From Chitinophaga pinensis (GTDB taxonomy: Bacteria > Bacteroidota > Bacteroidia > Flavobacteriales_D > Crocinitomicaceae), in NCBI GenBank assembly GCA_945883825.1, contig CAMCYF010000012.1, positions 1 to 64,000 on the forward strand: DNA of 64,000 bases, given 5' to 3'. Under the pieces are notes generated by a model that did not search any database, was not told the DNA's origin, and was given only the letters and a program-made list of their open reading frames with translations. Positions 7,383 to 50,660 of the stretch are shown piece after piece. Made by a program: the position numbers and the translations under genes. Numbering within the stretch: position 1 is the first letter of the stretch; each line of letters begins with the position of its first letter.

Positions 7383-9014
7383 TTATTTTCTAAAAATCTC
7401 TTGAATCGGAATTCCTGTCATAGCTCCAGTTTGTTGTAGATTTAACAAATGACTAAGTGTTGGGGCAATATCAATTATTTGATAAGGAGTAAACACATCT
7501 CCTTTAGTAATATTTTTTCCATACCAAAGTAAAGGCACATGTGTATCATAATTAAAAGATGATCCATGAGAGGTTCCTTGATGTGCGCTAGGAGTATCAG
7601 ATGATTTTAGCAAATACCCAGGATCTAAAATAAAAATTATTTCGCCGCTTCTTTCAAAGTCGTAGCCATTTTGAATCATCGTTTTCCAAGTATTATTCGA
7701 AGTATTTTCTTCGATTAATTCTTTTGAGGTATAAACGGCCTTAACTTCTGGCCAAGTTCTTATTTCATCTCGGATATAGTCTGCTATAAGATTATTACTT
7801 AGGTTTAAAGATGAAATTCTAGTTTTATTCAAATAGATATTCTGATTTTCTTCTTTTTCGATAAGGTTTTCTCCAAATTTTTCAATACATTTTTTTGCTA
7901 ATTCACTTAACTTTGTATCTAAAAATAAATAGCCTCCGGGTAGTTTTTTATCAATTAACATTTGAGGAACAGGAACTACGGCATGGTCTGCTGTTAAAAA
8001 AACAGTAAAACCATCTTTCCCACATTTTGCAGTTAAAGCAGCTAACAAACGACTTATTTCCAAGTCTAAACGCAGGTACATATCTTCTATTTCTAGTGAA
8101 TACGGTCCGAAAGCATGCCCTGCAATATCTGGAGTGGAGTAACTAATGCAAAGCATGTCTGTTTGAATATCTTCCCCAAGTTTTTCATTTTTTAGGGATT
8201 CCAATGCTAAATCAGTAAGTAATGTATTGGCAAAGGGTGAAATTGTAAAAAGTTGATTAGCTGAAGCTTCATTTCCCATTTCTAAAAAATTATAGGGGAA
8301 TTCAGCACTTGTTTTTCCTCCTATTATTTGTTCATATGGACTTTTATCTATAGAAGTATAATGGTCTTTTGAGAGTAGCAAATCCCAGTTTTTTATGTAG
8401 CTTTTGGAATTGTTTTTTGAGTTAAATTGCTTTAGCCACAGAGGAAGTTCTTTTTTAAAAAAGCTACTCGTTATAAATGTTCCACTTGAATAATCAAACC
8501 AATAAGAGCCATCACTTAAATGTCCTCCTGGCAAAATAGCAGAACGGTCTTTGTAGGATATGGAAATTACCCGAGCACTTGGATATGTCAATTTTAACTG
8601 ATCCGTTATTGTATAGGTTTTTAAACTTCTCGGAGATCTTTGTCCATCAGTTGAAATACTTCCAACAGTTGACTCTCTTGTATCAGTAACACAATTGATT
8701 ATACTTGAAGTTTTTCTGTCGTACCACTCATTTCCTACGATGCCATGATCTGCAGGAATACTTCCAGTATAAATTGAAGCGTGACCAGGACCAGTATAAG
8801 TTGGAACATAATTGTAAACTATGTTCCGAATATTCATACCTTGGTTTAAAAACCTGTTGAAACCAGTTTTGCAAAAGTTAGCTTGGTAGCGGTAGAGATA
8901 ATCGTAACACATCTGATCCACAACAATCCCAACTATAAGTTTGGGATCTTTGTTTTTCTGTGAAAAAAGTTGAGCGGCATTTAAAAATAAAAAAAGAAAG
9001 AGAATATTTTTCAT
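7383..9014 (-). CDS. PafA-like alkaline phosphatase, secreted
   Basis: 543 residues with a signal peptide (MKNILFLFLFLNAAQLFSQ). It belongs to the alkaline phosphatase superfamily, PafA/type I phosphodiesterase branch, and probably acts as a periplasmic phosphate monoesterase. Metal and catalytic positions can be followed: D33 (VVDQM), nucleophile T74 (PTYTGPGH), D296/H300 (PDIAGH), D343/H344 (TADHA) and H492 (YDTHVP). N95 and the K155-D-R157 pair match the phosphate-contacting residues that mark PafA monoesterases. A -7 box lies only 4 nt before the ATG. The aminotransferase gene follows after 3 nt. Confidence 0.9.
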   Translation of the reverse strand: MKNILFLFLFLNAAQLFSQKNKDPKLIVGIVVDQMCYDYLYRYQANFCKTGFNRFLNQGMNIRNIVYNYVPTYTGPGHASIYTGSIPADHGIVGNEWYDRKTSSIINCVTDTRESTVGSISTDGQRSPRSLKTYTITDQLKLTYPSARVISISYKDRSAILPGGHLSDGSYWFDYSSGTFITSSFFKKELPLWLKQFNSKNNSKSYIKNWDLLLSKDHYTSIDKSPYEQIIGGKTSAEFPYNFLEMGNEASANQLFTISPFANTLLTDLALESLKNEKLGEDIQTDMLCISYSTPDIAGHAFGPYSLEIEDMYLRLDLEISRLLAALTAKCGKDGFTVFLTADHAVVPVPQMLIDKKLPGGYLFLDTKLSELAKKCIEKFGENLIEKEENQNIYLNKTRISSLNLSNNLIADYIRDEIRTWPEVKAVYTSKELIEENTSNNTWKTMIQNGYDFERSGEIIFILDPGYLLKSSDTPSAHQGTSHGSSFNYDTHVPLLWYGKNITKGDVFTPYQIIDIAPTLSHLLNLQQTGAMTGIPIQEIFRK

Positions 9015-9168: not shown

Positions 9169-10422
9169 TTAATTCTTTATGAATTTATAACACTTTCCAT
9201 TGTTCTCTAGCAAGTAAGCACCATTTTTAAGATTTGATACATTAACAGTTTTTTCGAATGTGCTTAAAACTTCTTTTCCACTTAGGTCTAAGATTTTTGT
9301 CTTCTCTGATGAAAACCCAGATAAATAAAGATTTTCATTCGTTGGATTTGGATATATTGAAAGGGAATTTTCTTGCTCTGTTAAACCAACACTTGGTCGC
9401 ACATCAAATACAATAGTTCCAGGGGAAATACCTACGTTAAAGTTTGATAATTCAGTATTGTTATCGTCAAAAATATGGATTTTCCCAAAAGAGAAAAAGT
9501 CAGTTTCGCTGGTGTACAATTGACCAGAAACAGGCTCCTGAGCTAATTCATAATAATTGATGGAATGACCAGAGATTGGTCCACTTAAGTTCATTAGGTT
9601 GATGTCAAATTCATTCAAAGTAGTTTCCATAGAAATTTGGTAAACTAATTTATCATCGCGTAATGCTGATGTCCCACATCCAGTTGCTGCAGATTGTAAG
9701 TTAACAGTTGTATTGCTACTGCCATTCAAAGCTACTTTTGAAACGGATGCGTTAGACCAATCTTTGTTGTTTACAGTATACAGAAAATCTCCTGATTTCA
9801 TCAAATTATCTGGATTTTTACCATCTGGACCAAGGTCTACTTCATTTCCATAACTTAAGTTATCTAGGTTTAATTTTCCAATGAGACCTTTTTCATTTCC
9901 CCACTCGTAGCCATTATTAATCGCAATATAAGCTATTGAACCATCTATTACGATATTTTGACTTGCCCATTTTGGACCAGAAATTGTATCTATTGCTTGA
10001 ATTAAAGAAAGTGTGTTCGCATCATAAATATGCAGATATGAATCGAATGTAGTTAGGTATTCTCCTCGAGTTGCAATTAATTTATTTTGATAAATCCCTA
10101 AATTTCTAACTCCTACGCAAGATACGCTTGCTATTTCTTGGTGCGTATTCAAATCCATTTTGTAGATTTTAGAGTCTGCAGCGATATAATAAAAATTTCC
10201 ATCGATGATAAGATCAGACCCAAAACGCATTCCGTTTAAGGTGCTGACTACACTATAAATTTGAGTTGATGGATCGTAACTGCCAACAGTTACTGGATCT
10301 ATAATTTGATTTGTTTGATAATCAAAATATCCTTCGTTTAGAACAAGAACTTTGTGTAGGTAATTCTGAGCATTTAAGATTGTAGAAAATGCAATTCCGA
10401 GGATTAATAAAACTTTTTTCAT
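9169..10422 (-). CDS. T9SS-secreted propeller-like protein under B12 riboswitch control, candidate cobalamin-binding surface protein
   Basis: 417 residues: a signal peptide (MKKVLLILGIAFSTILNAQ), then about 320 residues of repeated beta-strand units (for example DLIIDGNFYYIAADSKIYKM, then LGIYQNKLIATRG, YIAINNGYEW, GDFLYTVNNKDW), consistent with a beta-propeller of the DUF5074/YncE-like kind. A T9SS type A sorting domain closes it (from about 347: SLSIYPNPTNENLYL ... GAYLLENNGKCYKFIKN). A cobalamin riboswitch occupies its leader. Known Bacteroides BtuG proteins are surface propellers that bind B12 and are riboswitch-controlled, so a cobalamin-capture role is inferred. No BtuB-like receptor is adjacent. 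Family membership is judged by pattern only. Confidence 0.75.
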   Translation of the reverse strand: MKKVLLILGIAFSTILNAQNYLHKVLVLNEGYFDYQTNQIIDPVTVGSYDPSTQIYSVVSTLNGMRFGSDLIIDGNFYYIAADSKIYKMDLNTHQEIASVSCVGVRNLGIYQNKLIATRGEYLTTFDSYLHIYDANTLSLIQAIDTISGPKWASQNIVIDGSIAYIAINNGYEWGNEKGLIGKLNLDNLSYGNEVDLGPDGKNPDNLMKSGDFLYTVNNKDWSNASVSKVALNGSSNTTVNLQSAATGCGTSALRDDKLVYQISMETTLNEFDINLMNLSGPISGHSINYYELAQEPVSGQLYTSETDFFSFGKIHIFDDNNTELSNFNVGISPGTIVFDVRPSVGLTEQENSLSIYPNPTNENLYLSGFSSEKTKILDLSGKEVLSTFEKTVNVSNLKNGAYLLENNGKCYKFIKN

Positions 10423-10439
10423 GGTTTTTTTTAAAAATA

Positions 10440-10544
10440 TTAAATTATTAAACTATTAAAAAGACGCTGAAATAAAGCCAAGGAATAGAAAATCGAAATC
10501 CAAAGGAATTCGTTCATCTTCCGAGTACGACTTTATTCTGAAGT
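10440..10544 (-). promoter_or_regulatory. Probable expression platform between the B12 aptamer and the secreted propeller gene
   Basis: About 100 nt between aptamer and ATG. It contains an imperfect inverted repeat at 10495-10513 (CGAATTCC TTT GGATTTCG on the minus strand) and a second possible pairing between AAGACTTC and GAAGTCTT-like segments. No long U run follows the hairpin, so control of translation rather than termination seems more likely. This is inference. Confidence 0.4.
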
Positions 10545-10705
10545 CTTCACTCCGCTCATTGGCAAGTCTTCTGGCTCACACCAACGCTAATTCACCTTCC
10601 CGTCTTAGACAGTGGTTTTAGAATAGCTTTAACAGTGCTTACAGCTGCAGATACAGCTCCGGATTCTAACCGGATTCCTTCTTAATTTGCTTTAAGGGCA
10701 AAACC
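10545..10705 (-). ncRNA. Cobalamin (vitamin B12) riboswitch aptamer
   Basis: Read on the minus strand the conserved order is present: AAGAAGGAATCCGGT, AGAATCCGGAGCTG, the B12-box-like CTGCAGCTGTAAGCACTGTT, then GACGGGAAGGTGAATTAGC and GAGCCAGAAGACTTGCC. These correspond to the P3-P6 core and the closing J6/3-P2 segment of the cobalamin aptamer. GCAA near 10690 can pair with TTGC near 10562 to close the core. Class I or II subtype was not resolved. It precedes the T9SS propeller gene and presumably represses it when cobalamin is plentiful. Confidence 0.92.
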
Positions 10706-10716
10706 AAAGAACAGTA

Positions 10717-10724
10717 CAAAATTA
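10717..10724 (-). promoter_or_regulatory. -7 promoter box of the B12 riboswitch transcript
   Basis: TAATTTTG on the minus strand, ending 12 nt before the aptamer. The predicted transcript start near 10710 fits the 5' edge of the aptamer. The rest of 10725-10835 is AT-rich and holds nothing else recognised. Confidence 0.55.
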
Positions 10725-10835: not shown

Positions 10836-12149
10836 TTACTGTTTCATGAAAAATAGTCTGCTAATCTTATTGTTCTGTTTTAGTTGTAAGATGTATGTCC
10901 CTTTTACAAAATTAGACAGGTCAATTTCAAGTTCATTTCCAGAAAAGCTACCAGTATATACTTCACGATTTAAAACATCTAGAATAACCAATTCACTGTT
11001 GCCTGAAGCATAATTTGTAGTTAAAGTAAGATGCTCAGAAGCTGGATTTGGAAATAGATTATTTTCTGCTTCTTGCTCAGTTAAAGAGGAAGGCAAACAA
11101 GCTTGGCAACTAGTCATACTTGTATACAAGGAAGCAGAATAATCTATCATTCCTGAAATGTTTGAACATCCTGAAATCATCGTGCATTGTCCGTTGATAA
11201 TTCCGATTCCAAGAGCCATGAAACACATTCCAAAATCAACGTTTGATAAATCTGAACATGGAGGGGCAAGATCAAATTCCATGCAGTTTACTTGGCAATT
11301 TTCTAGACTTGAATCTATAGCCAAAGCATAATCAATATCCCCCACAATTGTTCCACAGCCACTAATTGGACTGCAAATCCCATTAATTAAGCCATAACCT
11401 ATAAACATTGTGCAAGCACCAAAGTCAATTCCCGCTAAATCTGCACAAGAATCTGCAAATGTTATACTCCCTTGACATTCTCCTGGAGTCCAGGAAGTTA
11501 CTCCAAACCAATTTTCCGCTATGCAAGCGTTGCTATAAGTGATATCATTGCAACCACAAACAGGATTATAATCCGCAGTACACATTATATCAGGATTTAT
11601 TTGTGAAGAATCAATGCAAGTTATGATGTCTCCACAAGGGTAAGGCAAAACACAGATATTATTATCATAGTTAAAAATAACGGATCCTATGAAATTTGAA
11701 GGAAAAGGAGCTGTTAATCCTGAACTCGATACTGAATAAGGTATTGTAGTTCCTCCAACTTGTGCAAAATAAGCTAATTCTCCACTTGCTATGACATCAC
11801 CATTTAGATTTAGTACTTGTGAAACATATGGATAATTAATAAAATTATTAAAATCACCACTAAAATTAATTGATACATTGAGTATTCCAGAAGTGTCAAA
11901 AGAAATGTTTTCTGCGCAAAAAGATGAGCATGAAATAGTACTTGAACATGCTCCCTCTGTCCACGCAGTTACACCTCCTAGATTTACCGCAATACAGTCA
12001 TTTGAATAAGTAACGCCATCGCATCCACAAACGGGTGCGTAAATCATAGGGCAAATAGCAAATGAATCAATTAGAGCTGGATTTACACATTGAGAAAAAT
12101 TATAGGTTTTAAATCCAAAAATTAGAATTAGAAGTAGGATGTATTTCAT
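10836..12149 (-). CDS. Kazal-domain and Cys-rich repeat protein with T9SS sorting domain
   Basis: 437 residues: signal peptide (MKYILLLILIFGFKTYNFSQ), a Kazal-like domain at about 21-68 (PVCGCDGVTYSNDC), a beta-rich stretch, a second Kazal-like domain at about 178-226 (PVCGCNDITYSNAC), then two copies of a Cys-rich repeat (CADLAGIDFGACTMFIGYG and CSDLSNVDFGMCFMALGIG, each continuing through NGxC and SGC to a closing C-x(2-3)-C). A T9SS type A domain ends it (FPNPASEHLTLTTNY). Kazal domains classically inhibit serine proteases, so a secreted defensive or adhesive role is possible. A smaller relative with the same modules is at 49821. Confidence 0.85.
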   Translation of the reverse strand: MKYILLLILIFGFKTYNFSQCVNPALIDSFAICPMIYAPVCGCDGVTYSNDCIAVNLGGVTAWTEGACSSTISCSSFCAENISFDTSGILNVSINFSGDFNNFINYPYVSQVLNLNGDVIASGELAYFAQVGGTTIPYSVSSSGLTAPFPSNFIGSVIFNYDNNICVLPYPCGDIITCIDSSQINPDIMCTADYNPVCGCNDITYSNACIAENWFGVTSWTPGECQGSITFADSCADLAGIDFGACTMFIGYGLINGICSPISGCGTIVGDIDYALAIDSSLENCQVNCMEFDLAPPCSDLSNVDFGMCFMALGIGIINGQCTMISGCSNISGMIDYSASLYTSMTSCQACLPSSLTEQEAENNLFPNPASEHLTLTTNYASGNSELVILDVLNREVYTGSFSGNELEIDLSNFVKGTYILQLKQNNKISRLFFMKQ

Positions 12150-49820: not shown

Positions 49821-50660
49821 ATGAAAAACAGATTTTTTATTGGGTTCTTATGGTTCTCTTTTATAGTCAAAAGTCAAGCGTGTATTGATTCTACTTTAAT
49901 TGATCCTAGTATTTTTTGTTCCGGGGAATATCTTCCGGTTTGCGGCTGTGATGGCATTACGTATTCAAATGCTTGTGTTGCTTCATATAATTATGGTATA
50001 AGTTCCTTTACGGATGGAGAATGTTTTCCTACTTCACCTGATTCTTGTATGGAAATTCCAAGCGGAGTTAATTTTGGTGCTTGTGAAATGGAACTGGGTA
50101 TTATCCGTCAAAATGATACATGTATTTTTGTTTCTGGTTGTAGTTTTATTGGCAGTGATGGAATAGATTATTCAAGCTATTTTTATCCAAGTGAATATCA
50201 ATGCAATAGTTTATGTGGCGGTATCGATACTGCAATCCTTTTAAATTGTATCGATTCGACTTTAATTAATTTAAATGTCAATTGTCCTGATCTCTTTATA
50301 CCTGTTTGTTCATGTGATTCTATCACCTATTTTAATGCTTGCTGGGCAGTAAATTATCAAGGAGTTTCAGAGTATACTAATGGTGCTTGCACAACTAATA
50401 GTATAAAAGAGTGGGGTGGGAATAATGATTGTTTTATTTTTCCAAATCCTGGAGTTGATTTGCTTTTTATCAAGGATTTAAGTTTCGAACAATACAATTC
50501 AATTACAGTTTTTTCTATTAATGGCCAATTGATGGATTCAAAAACAATGACAACGGATTTATTTCAAATGGATGTTTCAAATTTACCTGTAGGTATCTTT
50601 ATTATAAAGATGGTTTCGAATAATGGTAAAGTAAGTTACTTCCGTTGGATTAAGGCATAA
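49821..50660 (+). CDS. Kazal-domain and Cys-rich repeat protein with T9SS sorting domain
   Basis: 279 residues: a signal peptide (MKNRFFIGFLWFSFIVKSQA), a Kazal-like domain (CIDSTLIDPSIFCSGEYLPV, then CGCDGITYSNAC), one copy of the Cys-rich repeat (VNFGACEMELGIIRQNDTC ... VSGCSFIG ... CNSLC), a second Kazal-like domain (PVCSCDSITYFNAC) and a T9SS type A sorting domain (FIFPNPGVDLLFIKD ... GIFIIKMVSNNGKVSY). It is a shorter relative of the protein at 10836-12149 with the same modules in a different order. It has its own promoter and terminator. Secreted or cell-surface; protease inhibition is possible. Confidence 0.85.
   Translation: MKNRFFIGFLWFSFIVKSQACIDSTLIDPSIFCSGEYLPVCGCDGITYSNACVASYNYGISSFTDGECFPTSPDSCMEIPSGVNFGACEMELGIIRQNDTCIFVSGCSFIGSDGIDYSSYFYPSEYQCNSLCGGIDTAILLNCIDSTLINLNVNCPDLFIPVCSCDSITYFNACWAVNYQGVSEYTNGACTTNSIKEWGGNNDCFIFPNPGVDLLFIKDLSFEQYNSITVFSINGQLMDSKTMTTDLFQMDVSNLPVGIFIIKMVSNNGKVSYFRWIKA

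Follow-up and report, generated by a model that had tools for sequence, protein, structure and literature searches.

A cobalamin riboswitch precedes a T9SS-tailed relative of BtuG at a locus without BtuB in a member of the Crocinitomicaceae

The locus and its leader

The window analyzed here is a stretch of 64,000 nucleotides (contig CAMCYF010000012.1, positions 1 to 64,000 of the forward strand, assembly GCA_945883825.1) deposited as Chitinophaga pinensis and placed by GTDB in the Crocinitomicaceae. On its minus strand lies a cobalamin riboswitch followed by the gene for a 417-aa protein, P0001, hereafter T9BtuG, which combines a BtuG-like beta-propeller with a sorting domain of the type IX secretion system (T9SS). 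An earlier sequence-only reading had noted the riboswitch and the T9SS-tailed propeller, an observation that is confirmed here, and its reading of the protein as a T9SS-delivered analogue of the vitamin B12 binder BtuG is supported. The features of the locus are as follows.

10717..10724, minus strand: promoter -7-like box TAATTTTG, read by eye against TAnnTTTG
10544..10723, minus strand: cobalamin riboswitch aptamer (RF00174), covariance-model match
10529..10545, minus strand: P13-like hairpin GACTT-CAGAATA-AAGTC, directly after the aptamer
10494..10512, minus strand: weak terminator-like hairpin CGAATTCC-TTT-GGATTTCG followed by ATTTTC, a possible expression platform
9169..10422, minus strand: coding sequence of T9BtuG, a 417-aa T9SS-tailed BtuG-like protein; ATG at 10422, stop ends at 9169
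10369..10422, minus strand: signal peptide, residues 1-18, without a lipobox, read by eye and from a helix at residues 2-17 of the structural model
9394..10365, minus strand: beta-propeller of the BtuG/DUF5074 kind, residues ~20-343, from profiles and the predicted structure
9172..9357, minus strand: T9SS type A sorting domain, residues 356-417 (PF18962 and TIGR04183)

The RF00174 match at 10544-10723 (minus strand) scores 105.2 bits against a gathering score of 31.5 (E 2.7e-25), covers model positions 1-189 of 189, and is the only one in the whole assembly (2.16 Mb, 99.79% complete). The aptamer first proposed at 10545-10705 is thus a real RF00174 element by an Infernal-type check, although its 5' end had been drawn slightly short. 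The claim that it has its own -7 box also stands, as TAATTTTG at 10724-10717 fits TAnnTTTG, which we take to be the Bacteroidetes promoter consensus; the promoter is predicted by sequence alone. A stretch resembling this box is visible in most of 17 aligned leaders, the view being partial because the slices start inside the box.

The aptamer ends about 120 bases before the start codon on the minus strand. The hairpin at 10529-10545, presumably the one usually called P13, varies hardly at all in sequence among the 17 leaders; it is present in the minimum-energy fold of the window and missing from those of three folded relatives. The stretch GACTTCAGANTAAAGTC is almost unchanged across the 17 leaders; beyond it the sequence varies, and most leaders then show a run of T. 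A terminator-like fold in the window leader is no better than shuffled sequences (z -0.73), whereas in the three relatives it gives z -3.92, -3.08, and -1.57, beats the shuffles in two of them, and takes the place of the short conserved hairpin. An OFF switch acting by transcription termination is therefore plausible for the T9BtuG family and is extended to the window copy by inference.

A predicted T9SS-exported propeller

The signal peptide of P0001 ends by eye in ..LNA|QN, with cleavage expected before Gln19. Ala18 and Gln19 each occur in 24 of 25 class-wide sequences, which agrees with cleavage by signal peptidase I. The lipobox pattern was found in none of 55 aligned family members. At the other end of the protein, PF18962 matches residues 356-410 (E 4.3e-9, Pfam) and TIGR04183 matches residues 356-416 (E 1.4e-6, NCBIfam), so that the 417-residue protein with signal peptide and T9SS type A tail is as first described. 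SprA, the outer-membrane component of the T9SS that was searched for, is encoded in the same genome (2312.9 bits), and P0001 would cross the outer membrane through this system.

The middle part of P0001 yielded no domain in single-sequence searches of Pfam, NCBIfam, and the PDB; the PDB search returned only designed SAKe propellers, with no individually significant stretch, plus the T9SS tail. Profile and structure searches were therefore used instead, and it is the profile comparison and the AlphaFold model, not the single-sequence searches, that bear out the propeller-like repeats noted earlier. The AlphaFold2 model, built from 55 sequences, has a pLDDT (predicted local distance difference test) of 89.8 and a pTM (predicted template modeling score) of 0.87, and the roughly 28 strands in its DSSP listing suggest that the propeller probably has seven blades.

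Kinship with BtuG

An hhalign comparison of the 22-member family profile with 12 riboswitch-linked DUF5074 proteins, 10 of which carry a lipobox-like pattern, gave 99.1% and E 7.6e-19 over P0001 residues 18-340. The DUF5074 profile from the riboswitch-linked set in turn matches a BtuG chain at E 1.7e-90, and the T9BtuG family profile matches BtuG chains at E 7.6e-8, mostly over the last blade. When the predicted structure was searched against the PDB with Foldseek, ranks 1-11 were all BtuG entries (E 6.5e-16 to 3.5e-13; TM by target 0.74-0.80), so that the protein proposed as BtuG-like is indeed predicted to be a propeller with BtuG as its nearest structural match.

The earlier term "analogue of BtuG" undersells the relationship, since the profile comparison and the tree point to a distant homologue in a subfamily of its own. 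In a maximum-likelihood tree of 40 sequences, 28 T9SS propellers (all but that of genome G064) stand apart from the lipoprotein BtuGs with support 100/100, and within them the T9SS propellers of BtuB operons (3 rows, 98/94) are separate from 25 standalone rows (84/80). The last 75 residues of the T9SS proteins had been removed from the input, and G064 and three lipoproteins form long branches whose placement is unsure. From this separation, the T9SS tail seems to be no recent addition to a BtuG, and the T9SS propellers would constitute an old subfamily. In G064, a DUF5074 protein under a riboswitch also bears a T9SS tail (L074:494-1792); the two modules seem to have been joined there independently, a second time, although the branch is long.

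Residues of the putative ligand pocket were compared with BtuG2, in which Trp194, Trp272, and Tyr316 narrow the upper-ligand cavity, and Tyr239 and Trp272 sit in the mobile beta5A and beta5B loops (excerpts of PMC10404256). The comparison covered 25 standalone sequences, namely P0001, five of the 80 named loci, and 19 class-wide loci (both sets are described below). Tyr291 of P0001 aligns with BtuG2 Tyr316 in a HMMER alignment, with numbering checked by Cys32, and is kept in all 25; an aromatic residue (Trp, Phe, or Tyr) always occupies position 222, within the part aligned to the beta5A loop, and residue 174 is always Trp or Phe. Cys249, which adjoins the BtuG2 Trp272 position give or take a residue, is kept in 24 of the 25 (one unreadable) and in 55 of 55 sequences of alignment A5; the proteins of L364, G065, G070, and G064 have Thr, Ala, Met, and Gly there, respectively. 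These conserved residues may line a B12 pocket, a reading that is kept conditional because the loop assignments rest on distant alignments.

Riboswitch linkage among homologues

The linkage of riboswitch and gene was followed in a kin-genome set of the own genome, 60 congeneric genomes, and 39 order-level genomes. Among the matches listed, RF00174 precedes every one of the 52 homologues that retain an N-terminus, in the same orientation and at 90-139 bases from the start codon; 50 of these homologues belong to the genus, and the other two are those of G065 and G070. This count takes N-terminus-bearing matches only and leaves aside T9SS-tail matches and C-terminal pieces (G007, G009, G021, and G041). 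A second set, 80 named loci that are the best 80 of 92 and derive mostly from metagenome-assembled genomes of Flavobacteriales, Crocinitomicaceae, or Cryomorphaceae, was searched with a leader profile, which found the riboswitch upstream in 77 of 80 loci and in none of 75 downstream control windows. The three misses have 13 bases of leader (L152), 0 bases of leader (L154), or a gene split in the record (L157). The two counts, 52/52 and 77/80, are not independent, since at least 27 of the 80 loci duplicate DNA of the kin-genome set; 14 of the 80 also served as rows in building the leader profile. The covariance-model search with cmscan confirmed the riboswitch in all seven loci given to it. A first count by two rigid motifs (39/77) was too strict and was replaced by the leader profile.

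The family extends beyond the genus. Profile A5, which draws on 54 of the 80 named loci after L112, L114, L154, and L157 were dropped as fragments or split genes and 22 near-duplicates were thinned, finds the family in 46 of 395 class genomes at E <= 1e-12 (39 outside the genus; 10 of the 46 matches partial). Among 20 class-wide loci from 15 families, hand-picked from the 39 non-genus matches, RF00174 lies upstream in 17; in one more, L347, the locus ends at the contig edge. Retention of the riboswitch by homologues, the count that the sequence-only reading had asked for, is thus seen in each of the three sets.

Apparent replacement of the BtuB operon

The 61 genomes of the genus fall into 50 with riboswitch and T9BtuG, five with a riboswitch-led operon and no T9BtuG, and six with neither; among these last, a C-terminal piece is present in G041 and perhaps in G007. 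Each of the five operon-type congeners (G017, G019, G026, G027, and G058) has a single riboswitch, and it leads into an operon encoding, in order, a DUF4465 protein, a TonB-dependent receptor (TBDR) of ~655 aa, a DUF5074 lipoprotein, and a T9SS protein of an unfamiliar family (here "SFAP"). The operon is complete in four of the five, being cut by a contig end after the TBDR start in G058, and its domains were checked with Pfam in G017. No full-length match to the 417-aa protein occurs in these five genomes among the matches listed.

The BtuB profile A3 gave E 1.5e-217 to 3.3e-232 in the four operon-type congeners searched, all of them rows of the profile, and E <= 8.8e-100 in 19 of 23 order-level genomes (10 profile rows and 9 not). 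Its best match in T9BtuG-bearing genomes reached only 4.8e-39 among the 31 congeners searched and 6.2e-21 in the own genome. All 14 rows of A3 come from searched genomes, which match by construction; G038-G060 and the class-wide genomes lie outside this search. The profile missed the riboswitch-linked TBDRs of G069 and G079, and these two receptors showed generic similarity only to the 18 Plug-domain TBDRs of the own genome. The DUF5074 profile found P0001 alone in the own genome (E 2.5e-5) and no lipoprotein BtuG.

The proposal that T9BtuG works without an adjacent BtuB agrees with these results, as no BtuB, DUF5074, or SFAP gene lies downstream at the own locus. In the neighboring DNA examined at the 80 named loci, the BtuB profile reached at best E 7e-17. 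Behind the class-wide genes, 4-9 kb of downstream DNA was examined at 18 loci and 0.6-1 kb at the other two, L348 and L351; BtuB was present in one of the 20, L364, where BtuB, a DUF5074 protein, and SFAP lie behind the T9SS propeller, and six large neighbors of T9BtuG in this set have no TBDR domain in Pfam. G065 and G070 likewise carry a T9SS propeller inside a BtuB operon, in the same arrangement as L364.

Four B12-binding-domain matches were found in the own genome, which points to a need for B12, and the two listed lie in frames of 727 and 1135 residues, a mutase-like size. Its one FecCD permease lies within a BtuFCD-like set whose members share 29, 45, and 35% identity with those next to the G065 operon, and a BtuC model scores best on this permease, with 179 bits, under the cut-off of 334. 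Since the genome has no recognizable BtuB or lipoprotein BtuG, the T9BtuG gene appears to stand in for the riboswitch operon of some of its congeners.

Proposed role

We consider it likely, though well short of certain, that T9BtuG is a T9SS-exported cobamide binder that feeds an outer-membrane transporter in place of the BtuB operon. When cobalamin is scarce, the riboswitch, an RNA recognized by homology, would permit expression, given the OFF logic suggested by the relatives. A signal peptide for signal peptidase I would take the product across the inner membrane, and its C-terminal domain would direct it through the T9SS across the outer one, as the sequence and the presence of SprA suggest. 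Outside, and probably held at the surface, the propeller would take cobamides into its central pocket, as homology, fold, and conserved aromatic residues indicate; it would then hand them to an outer-membrane transporter encoded elsewhere, and the single BtuFCD-like ABC (ATP-binding cassette) transporter of the genome would complete the import.

In gut species, BtuG homologues are surface lipoproteins that occur in 106 of 109 btuB operons, and none was found outside Bacteroidetes; the words "Flavobacter" and "secretion" do not occur in the portion of that article consulted (PMC6143338). T9BtuG shares with BtuG1, BtuG2, and BtuG3 of Bacteroides thetaiotaomicron (DUF5074/YncE-like) the propeller, profile homology, a leader riboswitch, the equivalent of Tyr316, and a presumed extracellular location. 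It differs in having a T9SS tail and no lipobox, in its separate clade, and in the absence of an adjacent btuB at nearly all loci examined. P0001 is thus no BtuG by membership, having neither a lipid anchor nor an adjacent BtuB, but it very probably works like one. With BtuBG operons it has in common the kind of regulator and the presumed ligand, and its sister-clade propellers lie inside such operons. In Flavobacterium psychrophilum, a cobalamin riboswitch precedes a TonB-dependent transporter (PMC9723704, excerpt).

As a T9SS type A substrate, P0001 has the usual PF18962/TIGR04183 tail and Sec signal. Known substrates of this type are mostly enzymes and adhesins, and no B12-binding one was found among the papers listed. 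The sequence-only reading knew of no T9SS-secreted cobalophore-like protein, and no title on a T9SS-exported BtuG was found among the open-license papers listed, a scope that leaves subscription papers and preprints outside and so gives no proof of absence. As far as searched, the export route, the BtuB-less locus, the replacement of the operon within a genus, and the spread through the class are new.

Several points weigh against the proposed role. The identity of P0001 to BtuG is 14-17% in Foldseek. The propeller fold is common (the model has 1394 PDB matches at E <= 0.001), and the first non-BtuG entry (8.8e-12) follows closely on the last BtuG entry (3.5e-13). BtuG2 Trp272 is unconserved, with approximately Cys249-Gly250 in P0001 where BtuG2 has Asp271-Trp272. 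Profile A5 found T9BtuG in none of five genomes from other genera of the own family, and two of the 20 class-wide loci, L354 and L358, are without a riboswitch. Cobamide binding, secretion, and a role in growth are all predictions, and the TBDR adjacent to T9BtuG in some loci failed a presence/absence test as candidate outer-membrane partner. Because many other propellers match, the fold alone is no proof of kinship; fold, profile match, and riboswitch together nonetheless make a strong case for kinship with BtuG.

The exchange of B12 shapes microbial communities in water and on hosts, and genome surveys often take BtuB as the marker of a B12 importer. If the proposed role is true, many Bacteroidia import B12 by a route that such surveys miss, and the T9SS, rather than lipoprotein export, places the binder outside. 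It also raises the question of which outer-membrane protein takes B12 from a BtuG relative without BtuB.

Outer-membrane partner and alternative readings

Ten of the 80 named loci carry a gene for a TBDR of ~800 aa just ahead of the riboswitch (L112, where it is cut, L115, L119, L121, L137, L140, L141, L146, L147, and L149), and the orthologue of this receptor in the own genome is L192 (G000:C14; 66-75% identity). This receptor was rejected as a dedicated partner because a close orthologue is absent from 17 of the 50 T9BtuG congeners and present, at 71-72% identity, in all five operon-type genomes. Of the 17, 15 have no match at E <= 1e-100 and two (G015 and G022) have matches of just 36-39%; some of these genomes are incomplete, but G011, G015, G020, G022, and G050 are 99-100% complete. 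A comparison of 101 of 104 Plug matches (30 as loci and 71 by coordinates; two riboswitch BtuBs were represented by the sequences from L061 and L063, and a 103-residue fragment was dropped) revealed no TBDR exclusive to T9BtuG genomes among G000, G020, G050, and G054 versus G026 and G017.

A surface lid is one version of the favored reading of an exported binder, as opposed to a freely released carrier. In this version, to which we assign even chances, the propeller is anchored on one unlinked TBDR, a highly diverged or replaced BtuB, much as BtuG2 acts as a lid on BtuB (excerpts of PMC6143338 and PMC10404256). The genome has 18 Plug-domain candidates for such a receptor. T9SS type A substrates are often surface-attached. 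Two of the receptors, the partial L193 and L198 (~720-730 residues), have closer counterparts in three T9BtuG genomes (44-50% and 40-59%, respectively) than in two operon-type genomes (31-32% and 27-28%). They are weak partner leads. Against the lid version, no TBDR tracks the T9BtuG type exclusively in the genomes compared, the upstream receptor fails the presence/absence test, and L193 most resembles a heme/hemoglobin-type receptor (TIGR01785 1.5e-33 versus TonB-B12 7.6e-12).

A broader proposal, which we hold only tentatively, is a BtuB-less cobamide module shared by many families of the class, in which Cys249 could coordinate cobalt, the transporter would be of an undescribed kind, and a membrane-like DUF6580 protein may be the inner-membrane step. 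This protein (175-191 aa) is encoded on the same strand behind T9BtuG in six of the 20 class-wide loci (L345, L351, L356, L360, L362, and L363), and L360 and L363 add a Peripla_BP_2 protein. DUF6580 resembles transporter S-components and is a candidate for the passage of cobamide across the inner membrane; NCBIfam gave nothing for the one DUF6580 protein scanned.

It is unlikely that T9BtuG is a dispensable exported accessory, a minor scavenger like BtuH or BtuJ in a cell that obtains B12 through ordinary TBDRs. In G065, G070, and L364, the T9SS propeller does accompany BtuB and a DUF5074 protein, but in the genus T9BtuG is kept behind the only cobalamin riboswitch found, a position that argues for a central role.

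We regard as similarly improbable the release of the protein as a true cobalophore, in which the tail is cleaved and the propeller leaves the cell, captures cobamides afar, and returns or unloads at the surface. The lack of a lipobox, the T9SS tail in place of a lipid anchor, and the lack of a fixed BtuB neighbor would suit such a carrier, but these sequence features do not separate release from anchoring, and free-living cells would probably pay a high price for a carrier that they let go. The earlier term "cobalophore", taken in this sense, is not favored over a surface-held protein.

A different ligand for the propeller (a siderophore, heme, cobalt, or an algal compound), with the riboswitch just timing expression, is very unlikely: the ~15% identity to BtuG, the replacement of Trp272, and the apparent use of further Bacteroides surface propellers in iron piracy (PMC13142918) would allow it, but the tight, class-wide riboswitch linkage, the eleven best structural matches, and the sister-clade relatives inside BtuB operons all speak against it.

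Further observations

The first protein of the congener operons recalls BtuJ. DUF4465 proteins (BtuJ) bind B12 (excerpts of PMC13398666 and PMC12751083) and have a jelly-roll fold (PMC13398666), unlike P0001, which has no match to DUF4465 (PF14717) up to E 1 in Pfam, although both are riboswitch-controlled and the DUF4465 protein of G017, first in its operon, is also T9SS-tailed. Loci L061-L065, from five congeners, encode a DUF4465 protein with a T9SS tail (Pfam in L061), a BtuB-type TBDR, a DUF5074 lipoprotein, and a T9SS protein. The tailed DUF4465 protein in this operon suggests that BtuJ-type binders are also T9SS substrates.

SFAP is a conserved T9SS family of ~320 aa in B12 operons (alignment A4; L061:3834-4790, L066:8571-9575, L364:7945-8934, and others) with the motif ..GSTAIHKDSS..FAVFENGF..DPYPTPFESGGFDLDA... 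NCBIfam gave nothing for the two members scanned, and the family is possibly an undescribed component of cobamide systems. In G089 (L080:1780-3312), a riboswitch leads into the gene for a 511-aa protein whose only Pfam domain above the cut-off is its T9SS tail. By hmmsearch, the distant relatives L155, L158, and L159 have another DUF5074-related gene behind that of the T9SS propeller.

In the window, the gene downstream of T9BtuG (7383-9014) encodes a type I phosphodiesterase/alkaline-phosphatase-like protein (PF01663) and starts 154 bases past the T9BtuG stop. Elsewhere in the window, 10836-12149 (minus strand) and 49821-50660 (plus strand) encode, by eye, repeats like Kazal inhibitor modules (CP..Y.PVCGCDGVTYSN.C) with T9SS-like tails.

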